A DNA stretch of 38,726 bases, taken from a virus. The DNA lies in IMG/VR virus record IMGVR_UViG_3300037247_000447, positions 1 through 38,726 of that record; one strand, written 5' to 3'. How positions within the stretch are numbered: position 1 is the first letter of the stretch; each line of letters opens with the position of its first letter. The translations under genes and the position numbers were made by a program. Shown here piece after piece: positions 1,945-31,618 of this stretch. The notes beneath the pieces are model-generated. The model did not search any database. It was not told the DNA's origin and was given only the letters and a program-made list of their open reading frames with translations.

Positions 1945-4900
1945 CTATCTGATCCTGAACGTTGGTTCAGTCAGCCCCACGTCACTAGCGGCAAGTTCTC
2001 GATAGCCCCACCTGTCCAATACGGGGAGCAGATCAATATGTGCAGCATACCAGTCCTGATTAAGTAGTGCCTTAACCCGTCGGTACTCCTTCAGGTCGGG
2101 GTCCTGGTCTACGATGAAGTCACGTTCATATGGAGGCAGGCCACGAGCCTGAACAACGAGCTGCTCCTCATACTCACGTCGGGTAGCGGGTAGCGGCAGA
2201 GCGCCTACACGTACGCGACCCTCACGCGTCTCCGCCACGATCATTTCCCACGCCCGCTCGCCAATGTCCCAGTAGCCCGCCTCACGTAGAGTCTTCTTGT
2301 CTCTGCGAAGGTCAGTATATACAGGGACCTCCTTGAACGGTAGCCCAAGCTGGCGCTCAATTGCGTCCGCCCGATCCGTCCCAACTTCCGCATAGAACCG
2401 CTCGATCTCCTCAAACATATCTTCCCGTTCTCGAGGGTCGGAATCTGCTTCGGGATAGCGGTCGAAGATATCGAAGAACGTATTCAGGTCATCCCACACA
2501 GGCCCCGCCCGCTCACGTGTCTCAAGACCGAGCTGCTCCCGCTCTTCCTCCAAGACGCTGCGTAGACCGCGCAAACGGAGGAACGCAGAATCAACCGCAT
2601 CACGGAAGCCCTTTCCGTTTTCCGTACGGCGGAACACGTCAGCCGCCTGCGTGATACCCTCTACCGCCTGCTCACGACCGACGCGGCCTAGCTCACCTAT
2701 AAATGCCCGCTGGCCCCGTTCACTAATACCTGCCACCGTTTCACCCGTCGCCTCCATTAGCTCACGGAATAGTTCGGGATTCAGGTCTTCTAGCTTAGCG
2801 CGATCCTCAGGAAGAAGATCACCAATCCCGTCCGGTAGATCGTCGTAGTCTGCCGGATTGAACATACCCGTCATAAAACCTTCATGGATCATCTCCTTTG
2901 TACGAACGCTGGGCGACGTGTAGGACACGATGCCGATCCCCGTGAAGGACAGGAGGCTTGGGAGCACATGCCAGACACCGCCTTCACGTACAGCTTCCTC
3001 AATGTCCTGGAAGACAATAGGCATGAGGACATCATGCGCGATCTGTCCTGGTGAGAGGTCTTCCCCAATAAATGTCTTTCCAGTCGTCGCTGACCACACC
3101 ACACCAGCGGCCGGTGAGAGCTTAGATCGAATCAGATTCAACGCTGCCGTGCCGACTTCGATGTCTTGGATGTCGCCCAGCGCAGTTTTCCGCTGGCCCG
3201 TCGCTATCTGTACCGCTGTGCGGAACAGGGGTAGCGCACCTGACGTGATGTCCACACGGAGAGGGCCGGCCTTGATCTTGCCCCAGTCGGTGGATCGGGG
3301 GTCCCACTCAACCCGTATGGGGACCATGCCCGTTTCCTGCTCTATCTTCCACCCCGCAAGGCCGACAAGTGCCAGCACGGTAGTCATCGTGCCGTAATAC
3401 TTACCAAGCTCACGAAGAATCAACTTACGAGCGGTTAGACTGATGCTCGGATCGAACGCGGGGCCGAAGCGCGTAATCTGACCAGCGACGAATCGAGGGG
3501 CGAAGAACGGTAGGTTCAGGACACGCGTGATGGGGTTCAGGGGGCCGAGAGTCCCACGTCCGGTTGCCGAGTTGACAAAGGAAGCTATAGCCTTTGCGTC
3601 AGCAGCCTCAACTCCCTCACGTAGGATGCCTACCCGTCCTGCAGCATCTGCCATACTATACGCAAGCCGATCCTCACGGGAAAGCAACTGAACAAGCATG
3701 TCCACGCTTGTGTCGCGGCGCAGACCGGATAGGAACGTGATCATCCCATCTGTTGCAGCACGCGATCCCAGCTGCCGACCAAGCACCTTCCGCAGTGTCA
3801 GCGGCACGCCCGCCTTCTCCATCATAGTCTCAGCGCCGTGATTAAGCACCCGCCCTAAGAAGGTTGCCTCGTCTCGGCCGAGGAGAACCTCCTCACCAGC
3901 AGCCATGCGCCCAGGTAGGGGCATGTACACCCCGATCTCGTCCAGATACGCGAAGTTGGGGTCCTTCATAAGCTGCGTTGCGCGGGCCTGCGCGAAGTCT
4001 TCAGAGAAGAAAGCACGGTAGTAACGTGTTGCATTAGCCCGCCACGCACGGTTCTGCGTGATCGCCATAAACCCACCCTGGCGGAGGAGCCCCGACTGGT
4101 CAAAGAGGCCCGCGAGGACATTTCGGGGGAAGTGGACTATGGACACAAGCTGATCAACAATGCTCGGCTTCCGCATCCCAATAAGGGCCGACAGGTTAAG
4201 TGCGAAGTCTCCACCGAATACCCTGTCGAGGAGGGATATCTCCCCCGGTGTAATGTCTAGCAGCTTTCCGGGGAATAGCTTGTCGGTCAGGATCGCGCGG
4301 ATGTTACCGGCCTCAAACACGAGCCCTTCGTTCCGTAGCGCATCCTGGGCCGCACGGATGAGAGTCTCCCGTTCAACGTCAGAGAAAACCTCGTCAGGAA
4401 GCTGGAACTCGCCCTTAGGCAGCTTACCACGCAGCGCAGTCCGCTCGAAGCGGAGGGCCTCTGCCCCTGTAAGGCCCTTTCTCCGGCCAGCCATGATAGC
4501 GCGCGACAGGCGTGCAGCCTGCCCCCGTCGCCCGGCCGTGATCTCCAATGCGCGGCCTGCCTGCATACGTGCGAGCTTCATTACCACGCTACGCATACGT
4601 TCGACCAATGGGCCTTGCGTATCCATCAGCTCCGCAAACGTCTCTGCTGAGGCTGCCCGTTGGGCTGCTCGCCCCGTGCGTGTGGCCTCCGCTGCAGCAC
4701 GACGCTCAACAGCCGTTCCTCGTGCACGTTCGACACGTGATGCAAGCCTCGCGCGTTGGTTCAGGGCCTTTTTGTTGCCTGCCTGTACTCGCTTGAGATC
4801 AGCAAGCGCCTCGCGGTGAGCCTTCTTCGCTTCAGTAACATCAGCTAGTCGAGCCGCACGCTGCCCACGGGGCGCATCTGCGTGAGCCTTCTCAGCACGG

Positions 4901-9601: not shown

Positions 9602-9871
9602 TTCCTCATCTACAGCGGGGAGCTTCGCAGCCGTCTTGATCAGCTCAGCCTTTGCGCCCATGCTCAGCTGTTCGTCTACCACCTGCTGAAACGCCTCAGC
9701 TGTCAGCTTTTGGATGTCTCCCCTTGTGATCGGCTGCTCCAGCGGACCAAAACCCTCGCTGTAGATCGTGTCGACCAAACGGTCTACGAGCTGATACACG
9801 CCGTCGAGGACCGCAAGGAATCGTTCATTTACCCAGGCCGATCCGAGGATGGGCTTACGGTCACTAGCCAC
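9593..9871 (-). CDS. Small helical protein next to portal
   Basis: 92 residues from GTG 9871, overlapping the portal stop (GTGGCTAG). Longer in-frame starts would lie wholly inside the portal gene and give an implausible N-terminus. The product is acidic and helical (VNERFLAVLDGVYQLVDRLVDTIY; LTAEAFQQVVDEQL). Not recognised; position after portal would suit a small connector or chaperone, which I cannot show. Confidence 0.6.
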   Translation of the reverse strand: MASDRKPILGSAWVNERFLAVLDGVYQLVDRLVDTIYSEGFGPLEQPITRGDIQKLTAEAFQQVVDEQLSMGAKAELIKTAAKLPAVDEELP

Positions 9872-11930
9872 GGGTCGTAACCTCAACCGCTTCTTGGACT
9901 GGCGGCCCAAAGTCCTTCGTGGACGGTGCAATAGGCATACGCACGCCGGGCACTCGTGGCAGGTTAGCACCACCAGCGCCACCACCACCACCAGCCAACC
10001 CCGTTGCCGGATCAATGCCCAGCGTCAACTGTTCTCCACCCTCCGGAGGCGGTGCCTCCCCAGGCGGTGCCAGGAGCGCCTTTACCTTCTGCGTCCCATA
10101 GGCAGTAGCCAACTCAACTAACACCGGGATAATCGCCTCCATCGTACCGATCAGCATCTTACCCTCGAAGACACGGGCTATCTCCTCATCAGGGTCTTCA
10201 GTGTCAGACTGCTCAACCACGGTCTGGTAGCCAGCTGTGCCCTGCTCCATGCGCTCAGCCAGCGCAGCCCACTTAGCATACTTAGTAACGGGGGTCTCTG
10301 CGCCCAGCGTAATAATCAAGTCAAAGGGAAGATCGGCCATCTCCGGTGTGATCACTGCCATGTCGGCAACGCGAACCTTCTCTCCCCGTGCTGGCTTCTC
10401 AGGCATAGCGGGAATATACACCGGCAGCCCGTGCTTGCGGACCGCATAGACAATCCCCTTCATGATCTCTTCCATCGCATCCTTTCGGACGTTCTGGTAG
10501 GGAACCATCTGGATGTCAGCCTGTGACACCTGGATCGCCAAGCGGTGGCCCGAAGCCTCAGAGGTCGCCTCCCCCTGCTGAACCTCCGACATACGATACA
10601 GATTTGTCTCATCCAGCAGTCGCTGCTCAGCCTTTGCCAAGTCCGCGTTAGGTGTCTCAACACGCTTGATCTCACCGGGGATAACAGGGATTTCACGGTT
10701 CGTCTGGTCAATCGACGGCGCCTTCTCTTCCTCTGACGGAAGCACCTGCTGCTCCGGAGTCGGACGGATATAGGCCGGTGCCAAGGCCTCCTCCAACGAT
10801 GCGGACAGCCGAGCCGTCATGAGAACATTCAACGCCTGCGCTGTGGATAGCACACCTTCGATCACGGGCTGATACTTGTACGCAGGGTCCTCATCGGTCG
10901 TCACATCACCGGGCACAAGTACGTAGCCGGTCGTTCGCGGCCCGAAGGGATTCGGGAACCGGAACACCACACCCTTTTCACCCTGCTGACCACGCGGCGC
11001 CCGCTTTTTGAGCTTCGGGTGCTCGATCAGAACATAGATGTGCTCACGCGTGCGTATCTCCGTATAGGCCACACGCTGGCTTAGGTCTGCCCCACTCGAC
11101 TGCGGGGGAAGGTACGCCCGCGCACCGACCGCCTCCGTTGTCTCTCCCCGTATGAAGACCTTTCCGGTGTCCTTGTCGTAACGCAGGCCATAGTCAGCAA
11201 AGGCTTCTAGGAGCGGGTTCAGGGACTTCTCACCCGTCTCCACCATCAACGCCACGCCATCGTCGTCCTCCCACCAATAACAGTTGAGGGGGTCCACGGC
11301 GATGAGCCTAAACGGGGGGAACTCAGTCCGGAGTGTATCATTTGTTACCTGGCTAAACGCCTTAGCCTCGTCACCATGTTTCGTCATAGCCGCGCGGAAA
11401 TCAGATCGGGCGCTGTTACGGTCACTGGCACCCTCAATCTCCCCGTCTTCGTCGTCAGCCGTCAGGTCATCGAGATCAAAGGCCCCAAGCGTTACACCGT
11501 GCCCAGGAAGGAAGTCAACCTTGAGGATGCCTAACCCGTCGCCCTGCTGGTGCTCTACCAGCTTCCACTCGACCGTCGGCTTCCCACGGTTCATCCAGTT
11601 GTACAGCGCCTTGATACCGTTCTCGAGTTCCTGCGCCAACCCCTGGAAGTCGGGGCCGGTCTTAAGCAGGATAACCTCGAACCGAGGACGGTTAGCGATG
11701 AGTCTCTTCGTACGCTTGTGCGCCTCCTGATTCGGCAGCTCGGTCTGATAGACCATGAGCGCCGTATCCTTTATGCGGGGGTTCAAGGGGAGCGCGGCAA
11801 GGTCCTGCTCCATTCTCCGGTATCGAACCTTACGCCGGTTCCGCCACACACGATCACGTTCGTTAAACGGTCGCATGACCTCAGTACGGAGCTTCCAAAG
11901 TTCTTGGTCAGTCGCCGTTGCTAGGGTCAT
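9864..11930 (-). CDS. Portal protein
   Basis: 688 residues. The product starts with a charged helical clip/stem-like N-terminus (LWKLRTEVMRPFNERDRVWRNRR), then the segment ALMVYQTELPNQEAHKRTKRLIANRPRFEV, which is typical for podovirus-like portals, and later a long helical C-terminal part and a Gly/Pro-rich tail. It lies two genes after the large terminase subunit, the usual place for the dodecameric DNA-entry channel. The length suits the larger podovirus-type portals. ATG 11930 overlaps the HNH stop (ATGA). There is no sign of frameshift. Confidence 0.8.
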   Translation of the reverse strand: MTLATATDQELWKLRTEVMRPFNERDRVWRNRRKVRYRRMEQDLAALPLNPRIKDTALMVYQTELPNQEAHKRTKRLIANRPRFEVILLKTGPDFQGLAQELENGIKALYNWMNRGKPTVEWKLVEHQQGDGLGILKVDFLPGHGVTLGAFDLDDLTADDEDGEIEGASDRNSARSDFRAAMTKHGDEAKAFSQVTNDTLRTEFPPFRLIAVDPLNCYWWEDDDGVALMVETGEKSLNPLLEAFADYGLRYDKDTGKVFIRGETTEAVGARAYLPPQSSGADLSQRVAYTEIRTREHIYVLIEHPKLKKRAPRGQQGEKGVVFRFPNPFGPRTTGYVLVPGDVTTDEDPAYKYQPVIEGVLSTAQALNVLMTARLSASLEEALAPAYIRPTPEQQVLPSEEEKAPSIDQTNREIPVIPGEIKRVETPNADLAKAEQRLLDETNLYRMSEVQQGEATSEASGHRLAIQVSQADIQMVPYQNVRKDAMEEIMKGIVYAVRKHGLPVYIPAMPEKPARGEKVRVADMAVITPEMADLPFDLIITLGAETPVTKYAKWAALAERMEQGTAGYQTVVEQSDTEDPDEEIARVFEGKMLIGTMEAIIPVLVELATAYGTQKVKALLAPPGEAPPPEGGEQLTLGIDPATGLAGGGGGAGGANLPRVPGVRMPIAPSTKDFGPPVQEAVEVTTRG

Positions 11931-12373
11931 ACAGCCTGCTCCATATGAGTCTTGATCGCGTGGCAGTTAGCACAGAGGAGCTGACACTTTTCAAGCTCAC
12001 GAATTACAAATGGTGGGAGGCCCCCCTTAAGCGCAAAACGACCAAGCCCACTAAGCCCCATCGTCTTCGTGGCGGGGTCAACGTGATCAACCTGAAGCGC
12101 CCGAAGATCATCCTTATACCCGCAGTTACGGCAGACGCCCCCCAACCGCTCGATTACTTCCATCTTGCCCACCCAGCGCGTCAGCTTAGTTTCCACACGC
12201 TTCTGGGCATTGATACTATCCCGGTGCTCTTCTCTGTACCGCCGACCACGCTCCGCAAGCTGCTCTCGACGGCCTTCTCTGTACCACCGGCCGACCTCGG
12301 CTATCTGATCGCGGTGCGTCTCGTTATACTGCTGGTTGTACGCTTTCCTCTTTACCCTATCCTTAAGTGCCAT
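11927..12373 (-). CDS. HNH endonuclease, free-standing
   Basis: 148 residues. N-terminal 60 residues are a charged, repeated helical pattern (HRDQIAEVGRWYREGRREQ / GRRYREEHRDSI), then an HNH domain with zinc cysteines C81/C84 and C134/C137, the metal-binding D96-H97 pair in LQVDHVDP, and H138 in CANCH. Such proteins cut DNA with a beta-beta-alpha metal site. The gene sits between TerL and portal, overlaps the portal start by four bases and appears to have its own promoter, which fits a homing-type endonuclease that has settled in the packaging operon. A packaging-associated HNH role, as in some phages where HNH lies next to terminase, is the alternative. Confidence 0.85.
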   Translation of the reverse strand: MALKDRVKRKAYNQQYNETHRDQIAEVGRWYREGRREQLAERGRRYREEHRDSINAQKRVETKLTRWVGKMEVIERLGGVCRNCGYKDDLRALQVDHVDPATKTMGLSGLGRFALKGGLPPFVIRELEKCQLLCANCHAIKTHMEQAV

Positions 12374-18180: not shown

Positions 18181-18819
18181 ATGACCACACTGAAGCAGAC
18201 AATCGACGCCATGGCTGGGCTACTCGAGCGCCAGGCCGAAGTGCAGCTGGAGATCATCGACCGCTTGGGCGCAGTCGAAGGTAAGCCAACATCGGCTCCC
18301 GCACAGGTAGCCGCATCCCCAAAGCGCACGCGCATCGTAAGCGCATCGCCTGAACTCCAAGCCCTACGTGGGCAGATCAAGCGCCAGGCGAAGGCCAACC
18401 TGATCGACAAGTGTGCTGGGCACTCGCCTGCTGCCATCAACACGTTCGTGCTGGCGGGAAGCAAGGCTGCACGCGAGTTCATGCGCGGCGAACGGACGGA
18501 AGCGAAGAGCCTGGAAGAGTTTGCCTTGGTGCCTGGTAGCGCAGCGCACAGTTACGCAAGCGCGGTTGCTGGCGGGGCATCGCCACAGGTCACGGCCACG
18601 CCAAAGGCCAAGGCACGGGCGAAGGGAGTCAAGGCCACGGCAGTACAGGCCAAGCCATCGACCAAGACGGACAAGGCTCTCGATGCCGCCATGACTGACG
18701 CCCAGCTTCTCAAGTCGCGGCCAGCCAGCGCAAGCCAAGCGCCAGCCGCGATTCGTACGTGGCTATGGCGCACGCGAGAACGCATCGCAGGGCGTGACCC
18801 GATGCGGGCTAAGGCGTAG
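18181..18819 (+). CDS. Basic, coiled-coil plus histone-like tail protein, first early gene
   Basis: 212 residues, ATG 18181 with ACGGAGG upstream. Residues 1-33 form a likely coiled coil (MTTLKQTIDAMAGLLERQAE, DRLGAVE); the middle is helical; from about residue 140 there is a Lys/Ala-rich stretch (ATPKAKARAKGVKATAVQAK) like the tails of bacterial histone H1-like proteins; the C-terminus is again basic. No enzyme motif is seen. Being the first gene beside the putative origin and strongly basic, it may bind DNA or organise the origin; this is inference. I do not recognise the family. Confidence 0.65.
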   Translation: MTTLKQTIDAMAGLLERQAEVQLEIIDRLGAVEGKPTSAPAQVAASPKRTRIVSASPELQALRGQIKRQAKANLIDKCAGHSPAAINTFVLAGSKAAREFMRGERTEAKSLEEFALVPGSAAHSYASAVAGGASPQVTATPKAKARAKGVKATAVQAKPSTKTDKALDAAMTDAQLLKSRPASASQAPAAIRTWLWRTRERIAGRDPMRAKA

Positions 18820-22163: not shown

Positions 22164-22630
22164 GCCCCGATGATCTAGACGAGCTGATCAAGCGGTTGCA
22201 AGCAGATATACCATCCGACGTGCTTGAGATCATGCTCCAAGAGGCAACTGCTACCCAGACTACGATGAGCGGCGGGGTCTTTGCTGACGCAGAAGAAGGC
22301 ACGTACCGCTCTCATACCCACTATGGCTGGTTCCTTGCACGGGAGCACGAGGGCAAGACCTATCTGCTCATCGAGGATCGAGCAGACGAACTCCATGCTA
22401 TCGAGTGTGGTGAGCAGTCGGAGGTAGAGTTCTGGAGTAGACTACTTGGTATGAATACGGAAGCGGAGGATAATACCCCCCCTGATGCGCCGGAAGATGA
22501 GCACAGAGACGACGAAGAGGGCAATGAGGTTCGCGTCATGCGTGGTGGCACCATAACAGGCAGGCTTACTATCAGTTCCGGGCCTAGCATTACATTGGGT
22601 GAGTACTGTGAGGAGGATCACCCATCATGA
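22160..22630 (+). CDS. Unknown acidic protein ahead of the Ubl cassette
   Basis: 156 residues, ATGA overlaps on both sides, so it is co-translated with the E2-like gene. Residues 1-100 look folded (LDELIKRLQADIPSDVLEIM; YGWFLAREHEGKTYLLIEDRAD), followed by a very acidic linker and a beta-rich tail (GRLTISSGPSITLGEY). No E3, protease or Ubl motif seen. It could be a substrate or adaptor of the neighbouring system; nothing in it shows that directly. Confidence 0.6.
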   Translation: MSPDDLDELIKRLQADIPSDVLEIMLQEATATQTTMSGGVFADAEEGTYRSHTHYGWFLAREHEGKTYLLIEDRADELHAIECGEQSEVEFWSRLLGMNTEAEDNTPPDAPEDEHRDDEEGNEVRVMRGGTITGRLTISSGPSITLGEYCEEDHPS

Positions 22631-24048
22631 GAACCCGCTTAGAAACCGTTGAGGCTATACGTGATGCACTCTACCAGATAGAGTCGGCCGACCCGATCCC
22701 AATCACGTTCCCATCTGAGCGCCGCGGCCTGATACGTGTCGGAGACTCCAACTTTTCGTCTCGCACTAGCCAATGGCTACGGCGTTACCGTGTGTGGCTG
22801 GACGTAACCGAGCCCTCACCTGATGGCCTTGGGAGGAGGCACGAGATCACCCTCATGCCGACCGCTTTTGGTTATGGGCTGGAAGGCTTCGTGCAATCAC
22901 CGGTTCGTATTCAGAGGCAGATACGTGGTGCTGAGCGCTCACGGGACGCCGCCATGCGTATTATTGAAGCCAGCCAAGCTGAGTTAGTGGAAGTAAGCGC
23001 CGTTATCAAGACTGTACGGTTACCGACTCCTCTCACTGACATCGAGGCAGCCGTAGCCGAATGGCCAGAGGCGCTCAGCGTGGTTGCTGGTCCGGATAAC
23101 GGCGAAGGGTATACCGTGCCATCTTGCACAATCGGCGTTGGCTTCATACCCGTTGCCTACGTGCAGCCGGGTGGGGACATTGCCCTAACCAGCACGCTCC
23201 TACCAATGGCGTCTTCTGCCCGCCCTAACTGGTACGATGGGCAGTTTGTAACCGCGCATCCCCACGTAGATAGGCAGCGCTATTGCTTTGGAACGGGAGG
23301 AGCAGCCGTGCGGGCGATGGGAAGATTGAATCAGGTCATAGCAACCTTCGATATCATCCGCCATTGGCGAGCCAGTCTGAACACGCACGATATGTACGGG
23401 CATGCATGGCCGCGACACGCCTGGGCTCTACTCGCAAGCGTCCGTGGTGGACATCTATCCCCGCTACTCGGCTGGGACGGGAACTCGGTGCAACGCTCAG
23501 ATACGGGTGATGTTGTACCACTAGAAGGAGGTCTTGTTGATGACATCGACCTGGCTACTCATGTAGGGATGTGGACGGGGGGGAATGTGACCTATATGTC
23601 TCATCATGATATAGTCAGCGTGGTCGGTGATCAAGATACGACGCCATCCTCCTGCCCCTCATGTGGCCGGCCGACCAAGCGTTGTAGGTGCCACGAGCGC
23701 TTCTGCGTCGGTTGCCAGGAGCAGCCTAACTATTGCATCTGTGAAGGTTCGTCTTGTCTGATCGGGCGTTACAATCTGCACGGCTTCATGATCAAGGTGC
23801 CACCTAGTTACGAATCATACCACTGTGGCTACTGTGATCGTCCGCAGGACATCATCGCTCTGGTGAGCACCTTCCAGATTCGAGCGGCACCTCTTCCGGT
23901 CGGGTGGCAAGCCTGCTGCCGTGGGTGCGTTGTCATAAACCCAACACTAGCCGGACTATACAAAGATTGGGAGGAAAATCATGATAGAACTCACGAAGAA
24001 AGCAGCACAGATGATGCGAACAGCAGTACTCGAAGCGCCGACGCTTGA
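22627..24048 (+). CDS. E2-like ubiquitin-conjugating protein with zinc-binding C-terminus
   Basis: 473 residues. The centre carries the E2 hallmark: H211-P-H-V214 followed six residues later by C220 in YCFG, matching the HPN/HPHV...G.xCL catalytic loop of E2/UBC folds. A downstream helix and DMYGHAW (about 250) resemble the C-terminal part of prokaryotic E2s (fL.s.N..d.Y). C220 would carry the Ubl as thioester. Residues 343-372 hold two copies of C-x2-C-x6-C-x-C, and 400-434 hold C400/C403 and C430/C431/C434: zinc modules fused to the E2. The N-terminal 110 residues are unassigned. The gene overlaps its neighbours on both sides, including 68 bases with the JAB gene. The E2 call rests on motif and context; no structure was computed. 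The zinc part might bring substrates, as E3 proteins do, but that is inference. Confidence 0.7.
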   Translation: MRTRLETVEAIRDALYQIESADPIPITFPSERRGLIRVGDSNFSSRTSQWLRRYRVWLDVTEPSPDGLGRRHEITLMPTAFGYGLEGFVQSPVRIQRQIRGAERSRDAAMRIIEASQAELVEVSAVIKTVRLPTPLTDIEAAVAEWPEALSVVAGPDNGEGYTVPSCTIGVGFIPVAYVQPGGDIALTSTLLPMASSARPNWYDGQFVTAHPHVDRQRYCFGTGGAAVRAMGRLNQVIATFDIIRHWRASLNTHDMYGHAWPRHAWALLASVRGGHLSPLLGWDGNSVQRSDTGDVVPLEGGLVDDIDLATHVGMWTGGNVTYMSHHDIVSVVGDQDTTPSSCPSCGRPTKRCRCHERFCVGCQEQPNYCICEGSSCLIGRYNLHGFMIKVPPSYESYHCGYCDRPQDIIALVSTFQIRAAPLPVGWQACCRGCVVINPTLAGLYKDWEENHDRTHEESSTDDANSSTRSADA

Positions 24049-24811
24049 GGTGCTTGGGTTCGGTAAGGTGACCGTAGACAGCGGTATCATCACCATCACC
24101 GACGTTATCATCCCGCCTCAAGAGGTAGGTGCAGTACACACCGACCTTGAGGCCGACGACTTGCGGGAGTGGCTCACCTCGCTGGCTCAGATCGGGATGG
24201 TGCTTGCTGATTGGCCGCTCTGGTGGCACTCCCACTGTAGCATGAATGTGGGTCCGTCAACACAAGACACAAAGACGCTCGCTCTGCTTGCTGAGTCCGT
24301 CCCGAGTCTCGGCTGGTTCGCAGGGATCGTAACGAACGTGCGCAGCGAGTACCACGGATGGATCAACACGACTCGCCCGGTCGATCTGAGTGCCACGCTG
24401 AGTGTGGACGTTGATGATCCCATACCAGTGAGCATCATCAACGCTGTCAAAGACATGATGAAGGAGGTTCGCAAGGCACCGCCAGTGGTGCACACGTACC
24501 CTTCTCTCTATCAGCCACCAACGGACCGCTCCTCGGCTCCACCTGTCCGACCACAGGCACTCAAGGGCCTACCCGATGACGCTGCTGCCTGGGATAAGTG
24601 GGCAAAGAGGTTTCCAACAGACGTACACCGGCGACTCCCTGATATGAATTGGCTGGCGATCAACGGGCTACGTGAGATGTTCGGTGCGGATGCCGTTGAT
24701 GCCCTACTTGATCGGGAAGGAGATGAGCTGATAGCCGTAGTTGCGAGCGGTGACGGGAATCAGGTTGCTCAGCAGATGATGCGAAAGAATAAGGGAGGAG
24801 GTAAGAAGTGA
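23981..24811 (+). CDS. JAMM/JAB-domain metallopeptidase (deubiquitinase-like)
   Basis: 276 residues. The N-terminal 135 residues have all JAMM residues: E23 in EVLGFG, H83-S-H85, and S93-T-Q-D96 exactly seven residues on, that is HSH-x7-SxxD. These bind zinc and cut after the C-terminal Gly-Gly of ubiquitin-like proteins. After a Pro-rich linker (about 160-185) comes a helical region and a Gly/Lys tail (MMRKNKGGGKK). There is no NlpC partner, unlike tail-assembly JAB proteins. GGAGG lies 6 bases ahead of ATG 23981, which falls inside the end of the E2-like gene. Role inferred: trim the Ubl precursor and/or remove it from targets. Confidence in the catalytic family is high; in the substrate it is moderate. 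Confidence 0.9.
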   Translation: MIELTKKAAQMMRTAVLEAPTLEVLGFGKVTVDSGIITITDVIIPPQEVGAVHTDLEADDLREWLTSLAQIGMVLADWPLWWHSHCSMNVGPSTQDTKTLALLAESVPSLGWFAGIVTNVRSEYHGWINTTRPVDLSATLSVDVDDPIPVSIINAVKDMMKEVRKAPPVVHTYPSLYQPPTDRSSAPPVRPQALKGLPDDAAAWDKWAKRFPTDVHRRLPDMNWLAINGLREMFGADAVDALLDREGDELIAVVASGDGNQVAQQMMRKNKGGGKK

Positions 24812-24999
24812 TGATGAGGCTGTTTCAGGTAACGGCGTTGAGCCACGACTCAAGCGGCAGCCCTATTCAGATAGGGTCTATAGGACGCTTGATCGAGGCG
24901 GGGTGGGCGCCGCTCTGTTACCCTTGGATGAGGCTGTTATTAGAGGATGGGCGCGATGTCGTTATGCCCAACAGTAAGCTCAGGGCGGAGAGGGGGTAA
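24808..24999 (+). CDS. Unknown 63-residue protein between JAB and E1
   Basis: Start GTG 24808 overlaps the JAB stop (GTGATG); ATG 24811 is an equal alternative. The strong ribosome-binding site (GGGAGGAGG) lies upstream. Product is small, mostly beta (FQVTALSHDSSGSPIQIGSIG, LLLEDGRDVVMPNSKL), with a Trp/Pro turn. It ends six bases before E1. Not recognised; I see no Gly-Gly tail, so it is not an obvious second Ubl. Confidence 0.6.
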   Translation: MMMRLFQVTALSHDSSGSPIQIGSIGRLIEAGWAPLCYPWMRLLLEDGRDVVMPNSKLRAERG

Positions 25000-25005
25000 G
25001 AGGCG

Positions 25006-25710
25006 ATGAACGACGACAGTTACTCAGCCGGACATACGGCTCTCCAGCTGGAGCCGCACCACCAGCGGCAGGCCAGAATCATCCATCCGCGCATGGCAGA
25101 AGCCACCGTGCTCATAGCGGGGCTAGGTATGATCGGGGGGTGGACAGCGATGGCTCTCGCCAGGGCGGTGGGGATGTTACATCTCATTGACCCCGACGTA
25201 GTGGAGGACGTGAACATCGGGTGTCAGCCATACACGTCGATGTATGTGGGGCAGGACAAAGCAGAGGCACTTAGCAACATCCTGACCGGCTTCTACACCT
25301 GTTATCAGGTGGACAGCTTTCCTTGTGATCTCACGACAGAGCCACCTCCGACCGTCATGATCTCCGCCGTTGACTCCATGGCTGGCCGCCTAGCTAACGT
25401 AAACTGGGCATGGGATCACGACATTCCCCTCTACATCGACGGTCGGATCATGGGGGAACTCGCCGTGGTGGCAACTGCGTTTGATGCGAGGTCGTACAAT
25501 GAGTACACTGCCGACCTCCCTGACGATGACGAGGTTCCGGACATTCCATGTGGTCAGAGTGGGACGGCGTACGTCGGAATGTGGGTGGCGAGTCGGATTG
25601 CGGCAGTGATCAATCAGTGGTGCAAGGGTATAATGCCGCGCCCCCTTGAGGTGTACCATGTTGGAGTAGGAAGAGGGATGGCAGAGGAAGACATTCACTC
25701 ACCAGAGTAG
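25006..25710 (+). CDS. E1/ThiF-type Ubl-activating enzyme, compact
   Basis: 234 residues. An N-terminal RQARIIHPRMAEATVLIAGLG holds R21 and the ATP-binding GxGxxG (G39-L-G41-M-I-G44). D62 and D64 in LIDPDVVEDVN, N70, Q74, K85 and D123 in SAVDSMAGRLANVN match the adenylation site of the E1 superfamily. C182 in DIPCGQSGTAYVG is the best candidate for the thioester cysteine. The usual N-x2-R-Q arginine is Cys (C73). It has no C-terminal ubiquitin-fold domain and no ThiF CxxC pairs, so it is a minimal E1. It would adenylate the Ubl C-terminal glycine and pass it to the E2. Neighbour genes for E2, JAB and Ubl support this over a cofactor-synthesis role. Confidence 0.85.
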   Translation: MNDDSYSAGHTALQLEPHHQRQARIIHPRMAEATVLIAGLGMIGGWTAMALARAVGMLHLIDPDVVEDVNIGCQPYTSMYVGQDKAEALSNILTGFYTCYQVDSFPCDLTTEPPPTVMISAVDSMAGRLANVNWAWDHDIPLYIDGRIMGELAVVATAFDARSYNEYTADLPDDDEVPDIPCGQSGTAYVGMWVASRIAAVINQWCKGIMPRPLEVYHVGVGRGMAEEDIHSPE

Positions 25711-25729
25711 AACAGGAGGTGCCACAGTA

Positions 25730-26050
25730 ATGATACTCACAATTGCGCTCATCATCATCGGAGCCGCCACGCTCTACATCGCTTGCGGAGTGTTGGCGTA
25801 CGGGCTAACGGTGGCGTACTTTCAGCAGCACTACTATAGTGTGCGCCGTGCCAGCGATAGCCGCAGTGCTCTTCTACTTGCAGTAACAGGGCCGGCCCTC
25901 CTGCTGGTCGCGCTTGTTATGGGGGAGTTCGGCTATCACGGCTTCCAGTGGCGGGCAACGGACTCAGCGTGGGTAAGGGACAGAAGCATCCCGTACGAGT
26001 CCTACCTTGCTGAAGGCCACGCACGTAAACACAGGGACTCCACCCTCTAG
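25730..26050 (+). CDS. Two-membrane-segment protein inside the Ubl cassette
   Basis: 106 residues. Two hydrophobic segments (about 2-28 and 46-68: IGAATLYIACGVLAYGLTV; LLLAVTGPALLLVALVMG) surround a basic loop, and a hydrophilic C-terminus follows. ATG 25730 has AGGAGG about ten bases upstream. It lies between the E1 and Ubl genes. It could anchor the system at the membrane or be a target; no direct sign. Confidence 0.65.
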   Translation: MILTIALIIIGAATLYIACGVLAYGLTVAYFQQHYYSVRRASDSRSALLLAVTGPALLLVALVMGEFGYHGFQWRATDSAWVRDRSIPYESYLAEGHARKHRDSTL

Positions 26051-26056
26051 GGGGTG
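26041..26056. promoter_or_regulatory. Imperfect palindrome at the end of the membrane-protein gene
   Basis: CACCCTCTAGGGGGTG is a 16-bp palindrome with one mismatched pair. It covers the stop codon of the preceding gene. No T-run follows, so it is more likely a binding site or message-end hairpin than a full terminator. Confidence 0.35.
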
Positions 26057-26076
26057 TTATCTCACAGCTGCGGGAG

Positions 26077-26092
26077 GTCGAGTATACTCGAC
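26077..26092. promoter_or_regulatory. Perfect 16-bp palindrome ahead of the Ubl gene
   Basis: GTCGAGTATACTCGAC is a perfect palindrome 36 bases upstream of the Ubl start. Its centre holds TATACT, which could be a -10 box (26083-26088), with no good -35. A repressor binding here would close the promoter. It is unlike the CTAAC palindrome family of the late promoters. Confidence 0.5.
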
Positions 26093-26128
26093 TGAGAAGA
26101 TAGATACCACATAAGGAGGCACAACAAC

Positions 26129-26383
26129 ATGCCAAACGACCGGGGAGTCGTAACCGTCGCCACGACGGAGAAGCAAGAGCCGTATGCCATCAACGGCACG
26201 ATGGTTACGGTTGAGGATGCGCTCGATAAATTCTTCGGAGGCGACGATGTCTTCGAGGAGAACTCGGTGTCGCTGAACGGTAGAGCCATTACTGAGACCG
26301 ACGTGAGTAAGGAACTCCGTGCCAACGACGTGATCCTGGTGCTGGCTAAGCGCCTCGCATCGGGAGGCATCAAGGGCGCCTAA
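26129..26383 (+). CDS. Ubiquitin-like beta-grasp protein with GG plus tail
   Basis: 84 residues. Strand and motif order match MoaD/ThiS/ubiquitin-type proteins: VVTVATTEKQEPYAINGTMV as first hairpin, helix VEDALDKFF, then VSLNGRAITETDVSKELRAN and DVILVLAKRLASGG (compare v.vNG......L..gD.v.v.......GG). G79-G80 is followed by I-K-G-A, so the product as read is a precursor; removing four residues would expose the Gly-Gly that E1 activates. AAGGAGG lies nine to twelve bases ahead of ATG 26129. Family call is by motif and neighbours. A pure sulfur-carrier role is less likely because E2-like and JAB genes are present and the tail needs cutting. Confidence 0.75.
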   Translation: MPNDRGVVTVATTEKQEPYAINGTMVTVEDALDKFFGGDDVFEENSVSLNGRAITETDVSKELRANDVILVLAKRLASGGIKGA

Positions 26384-26468
26384 GCACCTAACCTTCCGCA
26401 GCAATTCTCGGGGTGGGGGGTCGAGGATGGTCTCGGCCTCTCACTCCTACCCTCAAAGGATGCACATC

Positions 26469-27457: not shown

Positions 27458-28012
27458 ATGCCTGACCCCTCTGACTGTACAGCCTGCCCCCTCCACCAGC
27501 ACCGGCAACAAGTAGTCCCTGGTCAGGGAAACCCTCACGCAAGCATCATGCTAGTCGGTGAAGGGCCAGGGGCAGAGGAGGACCGCCGAGGGCTCCCCTT
27601 TATAGGGCCTGCCGGACAGAGGCTCAACGGTATTCTTGACCGAGCACCACTGTGCCGTCAGGATGTCTACCTTGACAATGTGCTCAAGTGTAGGCCCCCT
27701 GCGAATGATATCCGGTCATGTCCTCAGGCTATCCTCCTCTGCCCTCGGCTCTGGCTTGATCCCATGATCGAGACCATCAACCCCCGCGTGCTCGTAGCTC
27801 TCGGTGCTACATCGGGAAACCGGTGGTTCCCAGGCTGTGATGCGGGGCAGATGTCTGAGCTACAGCGGACACTCCCTAGTGGTCGGCTTGTGGTTGGGAG
27901 TTTTCATCCATCCCATGCGCTAAGAAGTGGAGGCCCGTGGAATAAGATAGACGATTCGATTGTAGCGAGCCTGAGAAGGGCTGTGAGTCTAGCTGATGGA
28001 GGTACACAATGA
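27458..28012 (+). CDS. Family 4-type uracil-DNA glycosylase (Fe-S)
   Basis: 184 residues. Cys7/Cys10, Cys78 and Cys95 have the spacing of the family 4 cluster ligands (CxxC ... C...x16...C). Active-site motif VGEGPGAEEDRRGLPFIGPA (33-52) and second motif SFHPSHAL (about 148) match UDG families 4/5. The enzyme removes uracil from DNA, protecting the phage genome from deamination or clearing uracil after synthesis. Length is normal. ATG has AGGAGG upstream and a promoter at 27399. Confidence 0.9.
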   Translation: MPDPSDCTACPLHQHRQQVVPGQGNPHASIMLVGEGPGAEEDRRGLPFIGPAGQRLNGILDRAPLCRQDVYLDNVLKCRPPANDIRSCPQAILLCPRLWLDPMIETINPRVLVALGATSGNRWFPGCDAGQMSELQRTLPSGRLVVGSFHPSHALRSGGPWNKIDDSIVASLRRAVSLADGGTQ

Positions 28013-28284
28013 CCATTGAAGATGAGCACACGCTCTTGCTCCGTGCTATCGATGCCTATGCTAATACTGTGGCGAGCATAGTCTATGGTGATGCATATCA
28101 GAAGGATGCAGTAGCAGCGTATTGTGACATAGGCCCTGCCATCCAGGCTCTCATGCTGGAAGTCGCTGAGGCCACTGCGTGCGCTGTCGCGGTTGGCGAT
28201 CAGCGTAGCATGGCACAACTCTACGATGCAACGGAGCCTGTAATACAGGAGATAAGGGCATTGGGGGAGGATCATAATGGCTAA
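28009..28284 (+). CDS. Unknown small acidic helical protein
   Basis: 91 residues, ATGA overlap with the glycosylase gene. Fully helical look: DEHTLLLRAIDAYANTVASI, ALMLEVAEATACAVAVGD, ending EIRALGEDHNG. Not recognised. Confidence 0.6.
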   Translation: MTIEDEHTLLLRAIDAYANTVASIVYGDAYQKDAVAAYCDIGPAIQALMLEVAEATACAVAVGDQRSMAQLYDATEPVIQEIRALGEDHNG

Positions 28285-29224: not shown

Positions 29225-31618
29225 ATGGCTACGTACATAGACCTTACATCTCTAGGCCCAACGGAGGACACCGCCCGACTACGGGCAGAACTCCTCGGTC
29301 TCCGTGGCCTCATCCTACGCCGACAAGACCGTGACGTGGCGTTGCGATCTCTGTCAACGGGCGACTCCATCGTGTGTCAACCGTCCGCATTCCCCTTCTG
29401 GCGTAGGCTTCCACCCGATGTTCCTATTGTGTACGCCGAGGACCCAAGCGCAGAGGACTCCCCCGCTGCGCGTGTGGATTCTTGGCTACTTTGGTGCCTT
29501 ATTCAGCTCAGTCTATCTCCATCTGAGGCGCGTGTGCTTGTACGCCAGCCCCCGAAGAGCAAGACACACAAGCATTGGCAGGCGTGGCAGACAGCAAATG
29601 AGACGGCGAGTGCCTATGAGGGATGGGCTGGCTCTGGTCTGCCTACGCTCGAGGTGCTGGGCGGTGCTGACGCTGACGTAGCGGTGGAGGCTCGACCGTA
29701 CCACTGGCGCCTGGTGCAGACCGACGATGACATCGAAGATGCGGCACGGTTTCTTGCACAGTATCAGCGCCCCGAGTACGCGCTAGGCGTAGACGTAGAG
29801 ACAGCCCTTGTGAGCGACGACCCGAACGAGACCCAAGACGATCTTGTGGGTGTTGGCCTGTCGTTTGGGGATGAATGCTTTTACGGTCAGACATCTGACA
29901 AACGGTGGCTTGCTCTGCTACGCAACTATCTACCTGGCGTTCGGTGGACGGCCTGGAACGCTAAGTATGATGAGGGCGTCCTCCGCCGACACGGTATCGG
30001 CATCGGCTCTCTCGCTGGCGATGGTATGCTTGCTGCACGGCTGCTTGGTGAGCCCACTGCCGGCCTCAAGGATGTAGTCCTCCGACACTATGGCGTGCGG
30101 ATGATCACCTATGATGACGTGACCCTTGGTGGCAAGCGGTCTATTCGTGACGCCCCCCCTGAACAGGTAGCCGAGTACTGCTCGGGCGACTGCTATTGGG
30201 GTGTGAGGGCCACGACTGATCTCGTACAGCGGCTTAGCGGCCAAGCCCTCAAGCTCTACACTGACACTGATCTCCCCCTCGTGCGGACCCTCGTCAACAT
30301 GGAGTTACGTGGCATCCAGCTAGACGTAGACTCCGCTACCGAAGCCTTGGCAGATGCTGACGAAAAGCTGCTTGCTTTGCGGAGCGCCATCGACAGCCTC
30401 GCACGTGAGTCTGGATACGCCCGCCCTGACACCCGCCGAGTATGTTCCTCATGCCGCAACGGTAAGAATAAGCGCGTCGGCTGCCCTGAGTGCAAGGGTG
30501 CAGGCGCCTTCCACTTTCCTAACCCCCTCAACCCTGGCTCCACGGCACAGCTCGTGGACTGGCTACACGGCCACCTGAACATCCCCGTTCAGGCTCTCTC
30601 CCGTAACACAGGCGCTGCATCCGTGGATGCCCTTGCCCTTCTCCGTATGCAAGACGCGCACCCAGCAATCCCGATCCTCCTCAACTGGCGGGCGATTGAT
30701 CGCTACCGTACGTTCCTCATCGGATGGCTGGAGGACGCCCAGCATGACGGGCGGATACGGACTAACCTCACGATGTCCTTCACTAAGAGTGGCCGGCTAT
30801 CTTCTCGTGACCCTAACCTCCAACAGGTATCCCGTCCATGGAGGCGGCACTTCGTTGCACCAGAAGGACACGTGCTCGTATGCGCAGACTACACTGCTCT
30901 GGAGGTACGCATAGCTGCCTTCGCCTCCCGTGACTCAACGCTGCTTGCTGTGATGAATGCTGACCCGGATACCGAGGCCGGCGACATCCATGCGCAGAAT
31001 GTGACTAGGCTCTTCAATGTCCCATACGCAGACCAAGAGGCACGTCCCGACCTCCGTGTGCGTGCTAAGAACTACCTCTTTGGTGCCTTCTACGGGTCGA
31101 TGGGACAGGAGGTACAGGCTGTGCTTGCAAAGGCGATCCTCTCGGATACGTCACTGGGTAAGCCGCCGAGCACCCGTGAGATCTCCCATGCTATCTCAAA
31201 CATCCACGACATCTACTCCCACTACTTCCGTGAATGGGTGCCGTTCATGATCGAGCGTGCGCGTGAACAGAACAACACAGCGTACACCTGCTTCGGCCGG
31301 CCGAGGGTAGTCCCGGACCTCACATCGGGGTACAAGCAGCAGCGTGAAGCCGCCGAACGGATGTGTATTTCACAGATCATTCAGGGGACAGCGGCTGACA
31401 TCGGCCGGATGGCCTGTAATCTGGTTGACAACCTGGCTGGTGGACGCCTGCTGTTGCAAATCCACGATGAACTGGTAATCGAGACGCCGCTGGCGGCTGC
31501 CGAGCTTGACAACTATAAATCGACCGTGGTACAATGCATGTGCTTAGGCCAGCCATTGGAGGGGGTTCCACTGATTGTTAAGGTAGGCGTTGGCTCAACG
31601 TGGCTTGATGCCAAGTAG
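29225..31618 (+). CDS. polA-like: Family A DNA polymerase with 3'-5' exonuclease
   Basis: 797 residues. Exonuclease: D190-V-E192 in LGVDVETAL, the NAKYD motif, and Y-x3-D in EYCSGDCYW. Polymerase: motif A CADYTALEVR (D555, E560), motif B RVRAKNYLFGAFYGSMGQ with the finger-helix R/K and YG, motif C IHDEL (H747-D748-E749). Between exonuclease and palm lies C407-x2-C410...C420-x2-C423 followed by KGAGAF, a small zinc-finger-like insertion. No 5'-3' nuclease domain. It would replicate the phage genome. Start ATG 29225 with GAGAGG upstream. Confidence 0.95.
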   Translation: MATYIDLTSLGPTEDTARLRAELLGLRGLILRRQDRDVALRSLSTGDSIVCQPSAFPFWRRLPPDVPIVYAEDPSAEDSPAARVDSWLLWCLIQLSLSPSEARVLVRQPPKSKTHKHWQAWQTANETASAYEGWAGSGLPTLEVLGGADADVAVEARPYHWRLVQTDDDIEDAARFLAQYQRPEYALGVDVETALVSDDPNETQDDLVGVGLSFGDECFYGQTSDKRWLALLRNYLPGVRWTAWNAKYDEGVLRRHGIGIGSLAGDGMLAARLLGEPTAGLKDVVLRHYGVRMITYDDVTLGGKRSIRDAPPEQVAEYCSGDCYWGVRATTDLVQRLSGQALKLYTDTDLPLVRTLVNMELRGIQLDVDSATEALADADEKLLALRSAIDSLARESGYARPDTRRVCSSCRNGKNKRVGCPECKGAGAFHFPNPLNPGSTAQLVDWLHGHLNIPVQALSRNTGAASVDALALLRMQDAHPAIPILLNWRAIDRYRTFLIGWLEDAQHDGRIRTNLTMSFTKSGRLSSRDPNLQQVSRPWRRHFVAPEGHVLVCADYTALEVRIAAFASRDSTLLAVMNADPDTEAGDIHAQNVTRLFNVPYADQEARPDLRVRAKNYLFGAFYGSMGQEVQAVLAKAILSDTSLGKPPSTREISHAISNIHDIYSHYFREWVPFMIERAREQNNTAYTCFGRPRVVPDLTSGYKQQREAAERMCISQIIQGTAADIGRMACNLVDNLAGGRLLLQIHDELVIETPLAAAELDNYKSTVVQCMCLGQPLEGVPLIVKVGVGSTWLDAK

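Follow-up and report, generated by a model that had tools for sequence, protein, structure and literature searches.

The IMG/VR virus record IMGVR_UViG_3300037247_000447 is a 38,726-base contig from a tailed phage, and that entire contig, positions 1 to 38,726, is the window analyzed here. On its + strand are four open reading frames (ORFs) that encode the parts of a ubiquitin-like (Ubl) conjugation pathway: an E2-like protein, a JAB/JAMM peptidase (JAB), an E1-like adenylating enzyme, and a small beta-grasp Ubl. This set is real, it is conserved, and it is owned by the phage. With a probability of about 0.72, by our estimate, the four genes form a working Ubl conjugation pathway that the phage makes during its replication phase. 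A broader proposition, to which we would give even odds, is that several lineages of tailed phages, including the cultured gut crAss-like phages, run complete Ubl conjugation as a core part of genome replication or of host takeover. These would be a viral branch of prokaryotic Ubl signaling, not a host-defense branch, with a fast-evolving E2 that selects the targets.

So far, the Ubl systems described from bacteria have mostly been enzymes of the host or defenses against phages. If the reading preferred here is correct, bacterial viruses also tag proteins. A conserved phage-owned set would, of course, also give a function to genes of crAss001, DAC15, and the Flavobacterium phages whose present labels are thiamine biosynthesis or hypothetical.

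The pathway would begin with the JAB metallopeptidase, which would trim the Ubl precursor after its invariant Gly (in the window, after ...RLASG, with GIKGA or IKGA removed). The E1 would then use ATP to adenylate the Gly carboxylate and would take the Ubl onto Cys182, from which it would be handed on to Cys220 of the E2. The E2, in turn, would transfer the Ubl to lysines of target proteins; in the window phage, the zinc region fused to it may act as an E3. The JAB could also take the tag off its targets. From the position and the conservation of the cassette, such a pathway would most likely be used as a switch on proteins of the host or the phage while the phage takes over the cell and replicates its DNA. 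We infer that the four parts act together, and with this their catalysis, the conjugation, its targets, and its benefit.

The features of the set are as follows.

22627..24048, + strand: E2-like protein, 473 aa, with a long N-terminal region, a UBC-like domain, and a C-terminal Cys-rich (zinc) region
22996..23433, + strand: UBC-like domain of the E2 (alignment A14; hhalign to UQ_con E2s)
23257..23286, + strand: candidate E2 catalytic motif HPHVDRQRYC (H211-C220)
23653..23928, + strand: E2 Cys-rich probable zinc modules, residues 343-434 (CxxC pairs)
23981..24811, + strand: JAB/JAMM peptidase, 276 aa (PADLOC JAB; profile match to crAss-type JABs)
24227..24268, + strand: JAMM motif HSHCSMNVGPSTQD (H83, H85, S93, D96)
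25006..25710, + strand: E1-like adenylating enzyme, 234 aa (Pfam ThiF; leave-out phage E1 profile)
25120..25137, + strand: E1 nucleotide-binding GLGMIG, residues 39-44
25546..25557, + strand: E1 candidate thioester Cys182 (PCGQ), aligned with Cys in phage E1s
26129..26383, + strand: Ubl, 84 aa, beta-grasp (AlphaFold model, PDB matches)
26360..26380, + strand: Ubl C-terminus SGG-IKGA (SGG is residues 78-80), the tail probably removed by the JAB

A first-pass annotation, made from the letters of the window, had placed four Ubl-pathway parts on one strand within this region. All of the ORFs and the motifs that it named (HPHV-x5-C in the E2-like protein, HSH-x7-SxxD in the JAB, GxGxxG and Cys182 in the E1) are as it claimed, and the catalytic residues are conserved in relatives. 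Its larger claim was that a phage owns a complete-looking pathway, encoded next to replication genes, and this claim stands across the more than 80 loci compared.

Related sets in other phages

Single-protein searches of viral contigs with the window E1 and with its DNA polymerase A gave no matches. A tblastn search of phage records with the E1 led to crAss001, DAC15, and Flavobacterium phages, where the E1 gene has Ubl, JAB, and E2-like genes among its neighbors. In all, about 75 phage contigs besides the window hold related sets. When a four-sequence E1 alignment (A5) was used to query IMG/VR, 156 relatives were obtained, and the best 80 loci were analyzed. These loci were fetched by their E1 alone. 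Nevertheless, all four parts are found in 74 of the 80, and the other six end at contig edges. The counts are dominated by related lineages and are not independent. About 70 have the order Ubl-E2-JAB-E1 and are related to the Steigviridae (crAss001, DAC15) and the Flavobacterium phages; these sets are called crAss-type here. Among phages that are in culture or bear a name, 74 records have the E1, and these are chiefly Bacteroides and Flavobacterium phages.

Three contigs (L007, L008, and L009) come from the window's own phage family, with TerL 67% identical and E1 51-59% identical. Each keeps the window's gene order, E2-JAB-E1-Ubl. None keeps the 63-aa ORF or the membrane protein that lie within the window cassette, and for want of conservation the idea that both belong to the pathway was rejected. 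The first-pass annotation had taken this membrane protein, encoded between the E1 and Ubl genes, to be distinctive of the locus, a view that must be given up.

The cassette also keeps its company. The window phage has a - strand arm that carries the major head protein and TerL (head and packaging) and a + strand arm that carries DNA polymerase A and a helicase (replication). Within this early arm, the genes kept between the window and L007 and L009 are the one at 18181, the E2, JAB, E1, and Ubl genes, the one at 26427, and those for uracil-DNA glycosylase (UDG) and DNA polymerase A, with the gene at 28277 kept additionally in L009; most of the small ORFs of the arm turn over. Of the 74 complete loci, 58 have a UDG gene in the DNA that was fetched. 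In the replication region of crAss001, the cassette is flanked by the primase and UDG genes, and the polymerase gene is also found there.

Each of the four cassette genes in the window is preceded by a GGAGG-like Shine-Dalgarno site. The E2 and E1 genes are separate, with about 1 kb between them. The start of the JAB gene overlaps the E2 gene, and the same start is kept in L007 and L009.

Divergence of the parts and the use of the pathway

The four parts have not diverged together. Where two E1s are 95% identical, the corresponding JABs are 93%, the Ubls 91%, and the E2s only 67% identical. Where the E1s are 65% identical, these values fall to 59 for JAB, 49 for Ubl, and 30 for the E2 domain. 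In every identity class, the E2 is the fastest-diverging part. The near-identical contigs L007 and L008, which come from two samples, share 39.3 kb. Away from the contig start, their single nucleotide polymorphisms (SNPs) fall only in the E2 gene (three) and in a scaffold-like gene (eight). The three in the E2 gene, at 4628, 5142, and 5162, all change the amino acid (T2P, F173Y, H180Y). This concentration is suggestive, the numbers being small. Variation of the E2 by a diversity-generating element driven by reverse transcriptase was considered and rejected; the four contigs contain no reverse transcriptase.

Much faster evolution is what fits an E2 that chooses the target, and the E2 is probably the part that selects it. 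Whether phages tag proteins could be confronted with data at once, even in existing proteomes. crAss001, DAC15, and the Flavobacterium phages are in culture, as are their hosts, and the predicted C-termini of the Ubls would leave, after trypsin, a short diagnostic remnant on the modified lysine.

A quickly changing E2 would also be expected, of course, if the pathway served to tag or saturate an anti-phage system of the host (a Ubl system of the Bil-like or CBASS kind, for instance), as host targets that change would drive the E2 to change with them. Both the divergence in all identity classes and the three replacements in the E2 of L007 and L008 agree with this, and Bil-like defense exists in Bacteroides (PMC12135933). 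However, the cassette belongs to replication modules that are conserved, and wherever a locus of the sampled lineages offers enough DNA, the set is there. Genes for counter-defense are usually accessory and patchy. Further, three SNPs are few. Counter-defense is thus a tentative explanation, and on balance an unlikely one.

Changing rivals, rather than changing hosts, might likewise account for the E2, if the set were a Bil-like weapon with which a resident phage tags the tail or head proteins of a competitor in co-infection or lysogeny. In its favor, the list of parts, and in the crAss-type sets their order too, matches Bil. Such a weapon would require carriers such as crAss001 to spare their own virions, and it would be expected among accessory genes, not among the replication genes where the cassette is found. 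This makes it improbable.

The E1, the peptidase, and the Ubl

The window E1 scores 53.7 bits against Pfam ThiF, for which the cut-off is 28.1. A leave-out profile of phage E1s matches it at E 1e-32, and the column of its Cys182 holds Cys in 99% of 77 phage E1s. In an E1 tree, the pathway-type E1s stand apart from most bacterial ThiF-like proteins; support is modest and branches are long, and the tree is not used as an argument.

The JAB is weakly recognized by the PADLOC JAB model (E 0.002). Its catalytic residues (HSH at 83-85, S93, and D96, with E23 upstream) are intact, and the H, H, S, and D of the JAMM motif are conserved at 95-96% among phage relatives. Comparison of the window-clade and crAss-type JAB profiles gives 38.6, against a maximum of 19.1 for shuffled profiles. 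As judged from such profiles, the E1 and JAB of the window are homologous to those of the crAss-type sets.

No family model matches the window Ubl or the window E2 in direct scans that included Pfam and PADLOC. An AlphaFold model of the Ubl, built from an alignment that holds both window-clade and crAss-type Ubls, has the order beta-beta-alpha-beta-beta-beta of a beta-grasp, with moderate confidence (pLDDT 70, pTM 0.57). Its structural matches in the PDB are of the ThiS, MoaD, TtuB, SAMP1, SUMO, and ubiquitin types, the best at E 1.8e-3. A beta-grasp with Gly-Gly had been proposed for this 84-residue protein; model and PDB matches agree on the fold, and the Gly stands. The pair of glycines fares less well as a family trait. 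In 28 aligned phage Ubls, the sole invariant column is that of G79, and the Gly-Gly end is particular to the window clade and a few others.

What follows the invariant Gly is not conserved. Some phages have a single residue there (KSGK, KAGA), the window has a tail of the IKGA type, and many crAss-type Ubls extend 100-250 residues further, so that tails run from 1 to about 250 residues. A Gly that never varies, with a tail that varies freely behind it, is what characterizes Ubls made as precursors and then trimmed. This pattern of a processed precursor ties the Ubl to the JAB, whose gene is always near and whose product would do the trimming.

E1-like and Ubl-like proteins need not, of course, tag proteins at all. 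ThiS-ThiF, MoaD-MoeB, and TtuB deliver sulfur, and the phage E1 and Ubl might do so for the modification of nucleotides, tRNA, or a cofactor. The closest PDB folds to the Ubl are archaeal Mth1743, ThiS, and TtuB; further, the crAss001 E1 is annotated as ThiF, and nucleotide-metabolism genes are neighbors. However, the window E1 falls far below the ThiF and MoeB sulfur-carrier equivalog cut-offs (52 against 159 bits, and lower), and neither a rhodanese nor a cysteine desulfurase is seen among the annotated neighbors. As the E2 and JAB are always kept, a role in sulfur delivery is improbable.

The E2-like protein

The window E2 carries HPH at residues 211-213 and Cys at 220, and 14 of its 16 Cys residues lie within 343-434, in pairs such as CPSC, CVGC, and CGYC. 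The HPH, C, G, and W are invariant in a 20-sequence alignment (A14). They are common to the window, a contig labeled Deltaproteobacteria (L090), and operons in Phycisphaerae metagenome-assembled genomes (MAGs; L093, L095). Among 343 planctomycete genomes, 9 encode proteins of this type, at 16 places in total, and each adjoins a JAB and an E1. Planctomycete chromosomes may hold several such E2(zinc)-JAB-E1 operons (L118-L132), six in one genome.

The window family profile was compared by hhalign with 15 planctomycete E2s that Pfam recognizes as UQ_con. The score was 37.9 (probability 80), against a mean of 11.6 and a maximum of 19.4 for shuffled controls and 10-14 for unrelated profiles. The two families are collinear in HPH-x-C-x-G and YN-x-x-S. 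When the window clade was left out of the E2 profile and its ORFs were then searched, the window E2 came out on top (E 0.003). On these sequence comparisons, the window E2 is homologous to planctomycete E2s and to UBC profiles. A simple MAFFT alignment of the window E2 with that of MT835544.1 (L002) misplaced the active sites and was not used.

The zinc region stands at the same place in L009, L090, and the planctomycete E2s, and is lost in L007 and L008. Its predicted modules are the ordinary architecture of the family; the fusion of E2 and zinc modules, which the first-pass annotation had held to be distinctive, is not special to this phage.

Other searches were less productive. Searches of PDB sequences with E2 profiles gave chance matches only. 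A tblastn search with the E2 gave none in phage records and weak, chance-like matches in plasmids. Prok-E2_D and Prok-E2_B each matched a single planctomycete genome, and E2s of the window type were not among their matches. The crAss-type E2s have their own signature, YxHSHx(n)CxG...ESxxGxP, with the C and G 99% conserved, and their link to the window E2 family is modest (21.5, against a shuffled maximum of 17.8).

Several observations count against a working conjugation pathway. AlphaFold gave no usable model of the full E2 (7 sequences; pLDDT 35); what supports the UBC fold proposed for the 473-residue protein is the profile comparison. Pfam offers these E2s nothing beyond a weak UQ_con match in one relative (0.029-0.11). 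The classical E2 motif is HPN; here, His replaces the Asn, and the chemistry may differ. By sequence, the Ubls of the window clade and of the crAss-type sets are also only modestly linked (19.9 against a shuffled maximum of 16.0), and more strongly via L014-like Ubls (26.4). Last, the fast evolution of the E2 could reflect relaxed constraint. With good profile support and no structural model, "E2-like" is the appropriate label.

The AlphaFold result and the lack of a Pfam match to the window protein would suit a Cys/His protein of another fold, leaving a pathway of E1, JAB, and Ubl only. So would the crAss-type E2s, which do not match UQ_con beyond shuffled sequences, as 1 of 100 shuffles reached the same score. 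However, the score against true UQ_con E2s, the collinear motifs, and the planctomycete homologs within E2-JAB-E1 operons leave that idea a slim chance.

Neighboring genes and other observations

Further features of the window are listed here.

24808..24999, + strand: 63-aa ORF within the cassette, not kept in sister phages
25730..26050, + strand: 106-aa membrane protein with two hydrophobic segments, not kept in L007-L009
26427..26912, + strand: 161-aa protein without family match, adjoining the cassette in L007 and L009 too
27458..28012, + strand: UDG superfamily protein (Pfam UDG, 93.7 bits), a conserved neighbor
29225..31618, + strand: DNA polymerase A family (PHROG_17, E 5e-78), a conserved neighbor

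The 161-aa protein has counterparts just past the Ubl region in L007 (8556-8948) and L009 (7881-8288) that are 49-58% identical; it is possibly a target or partner of the cassette. In the Steigviridae, the gene directly 3' of E1 (crAss001 gp75, at 6705-7517 in L004) is unannotated and has no Pfam match. By phmmer, counterparts of gp75 are found in 7 of the 74 complete loci.

Two features bear on the host of the window phage: its TerL is about 35% identical to those of Arthrobacter phages, and its genes have strong Shine-Dalgarno sites. An HNH endonuclease gene (11927-12373) lies between the TerL gene and a 688-aa ORF. At G003:C1:5384-7567 (L113, L114), the TerL frame has 729 aa, and a stretch of about 770 bases, open throughout in that frame, separates the two halves of the match; this TerL possibly holds an intein.

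MT835544.1 carries a further Ubl-E2-JAB-E1 set, along with genes for reverse transcriptase and tyrosine recombinase. On its reverse complement, at 1928-2443 and 9724-11700, are six small proteins with an ECxCxSLL-like C-terminal tail, which could be a common signal for processing or attachment.

Comparison with known systems

In searches of open-access papers, no description of a phage-borne Ubl conjugation set was found, and two crAss genome papers do not mention one. One GenBank record already bears the label "E1 enzyme family protein," and earlier notice elsewhere is possible.

Bacterial operons for E1, E2, JAB, and Ubl, some on plasmids and integrative and conjugative elements, were described by Iyer et al. 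(2006; PMC1779556; rows 6a-6d), who predicted a Ubl relay. The enzyme set is the same as in the window; those carriers are bacteria, plasmids, and mobile elements, and the only phage case there is the TAPI-TAPK pair of lambda and T1 tails. In rows 6a-6c, as in type II CBASS with Cap2/Cap3, E1 and E2 are fused, unlike the separate genes of the window. The lambda-type pair has a Ubl and a JAB in the tail block without E1 or E2, whereas the window set, with both, lies in the early, replication arm.

The PRTRC cassette resembles the window in having Ubl, E2, JAB, and a ThiF-type E1 as separate genes. However, the window E1 reaches only 22.6 of the 144.75 bits of the PRTRC ThiF model, and no other PRTRC model matches. 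Bil is a host defense, not phage-borne, of four genes for Ubl, E2, a JAMM deubiquitinase, and E1, in the Ubl-E2-JAB-E1 order of the crAss-type sets. No named Bil model was among the matches of the window proteins, and no dedicated homology comparison with Bil was made. Of the broad prokaryotic Ubl-E2-JAB-E1 kind of cassette, the window has the ThiF-type E1 with a conserved Cys, the JAB with intact JAMM residues, and the beta-grasp Ubl with a C-terminal Gly.

The Planctomycetota operons are like the window in that their E2 has HPH...CxG and a zinc array at its C-terminus, and in that the JAB and E1 genes come after it. They differ in lying on chromosomes or MAG contigs, in placing the Ubl first (L093, L095), in the canonical HTHPG form of the JAMM motif, and in occurring in up to six copies per genome.

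The crAss-type sets are phage-borne, as the window set is. In the crAss-like Steigviridae (crAss001 gp79-gp76, DAC15 91-88) and the Flavobacterium FpV phages, genes for Ubl, E2-like protein, JAB, and E1 are neighbors in the replication region near UDG; their labels in the records are thiamine biosynthesis protein, metalloprotease, and hypothetical. Their gene order is not that of the window clade, their Ubl often has a long C-terminal extension, and their E2 lacks the zinc region. Nevertheless, the window has E1 and JAB genes homologous to theirs, which again adjoin Ubl and E2 genes within the replication module of a phage, and the HxH...CxG and SG signatures appear in both.

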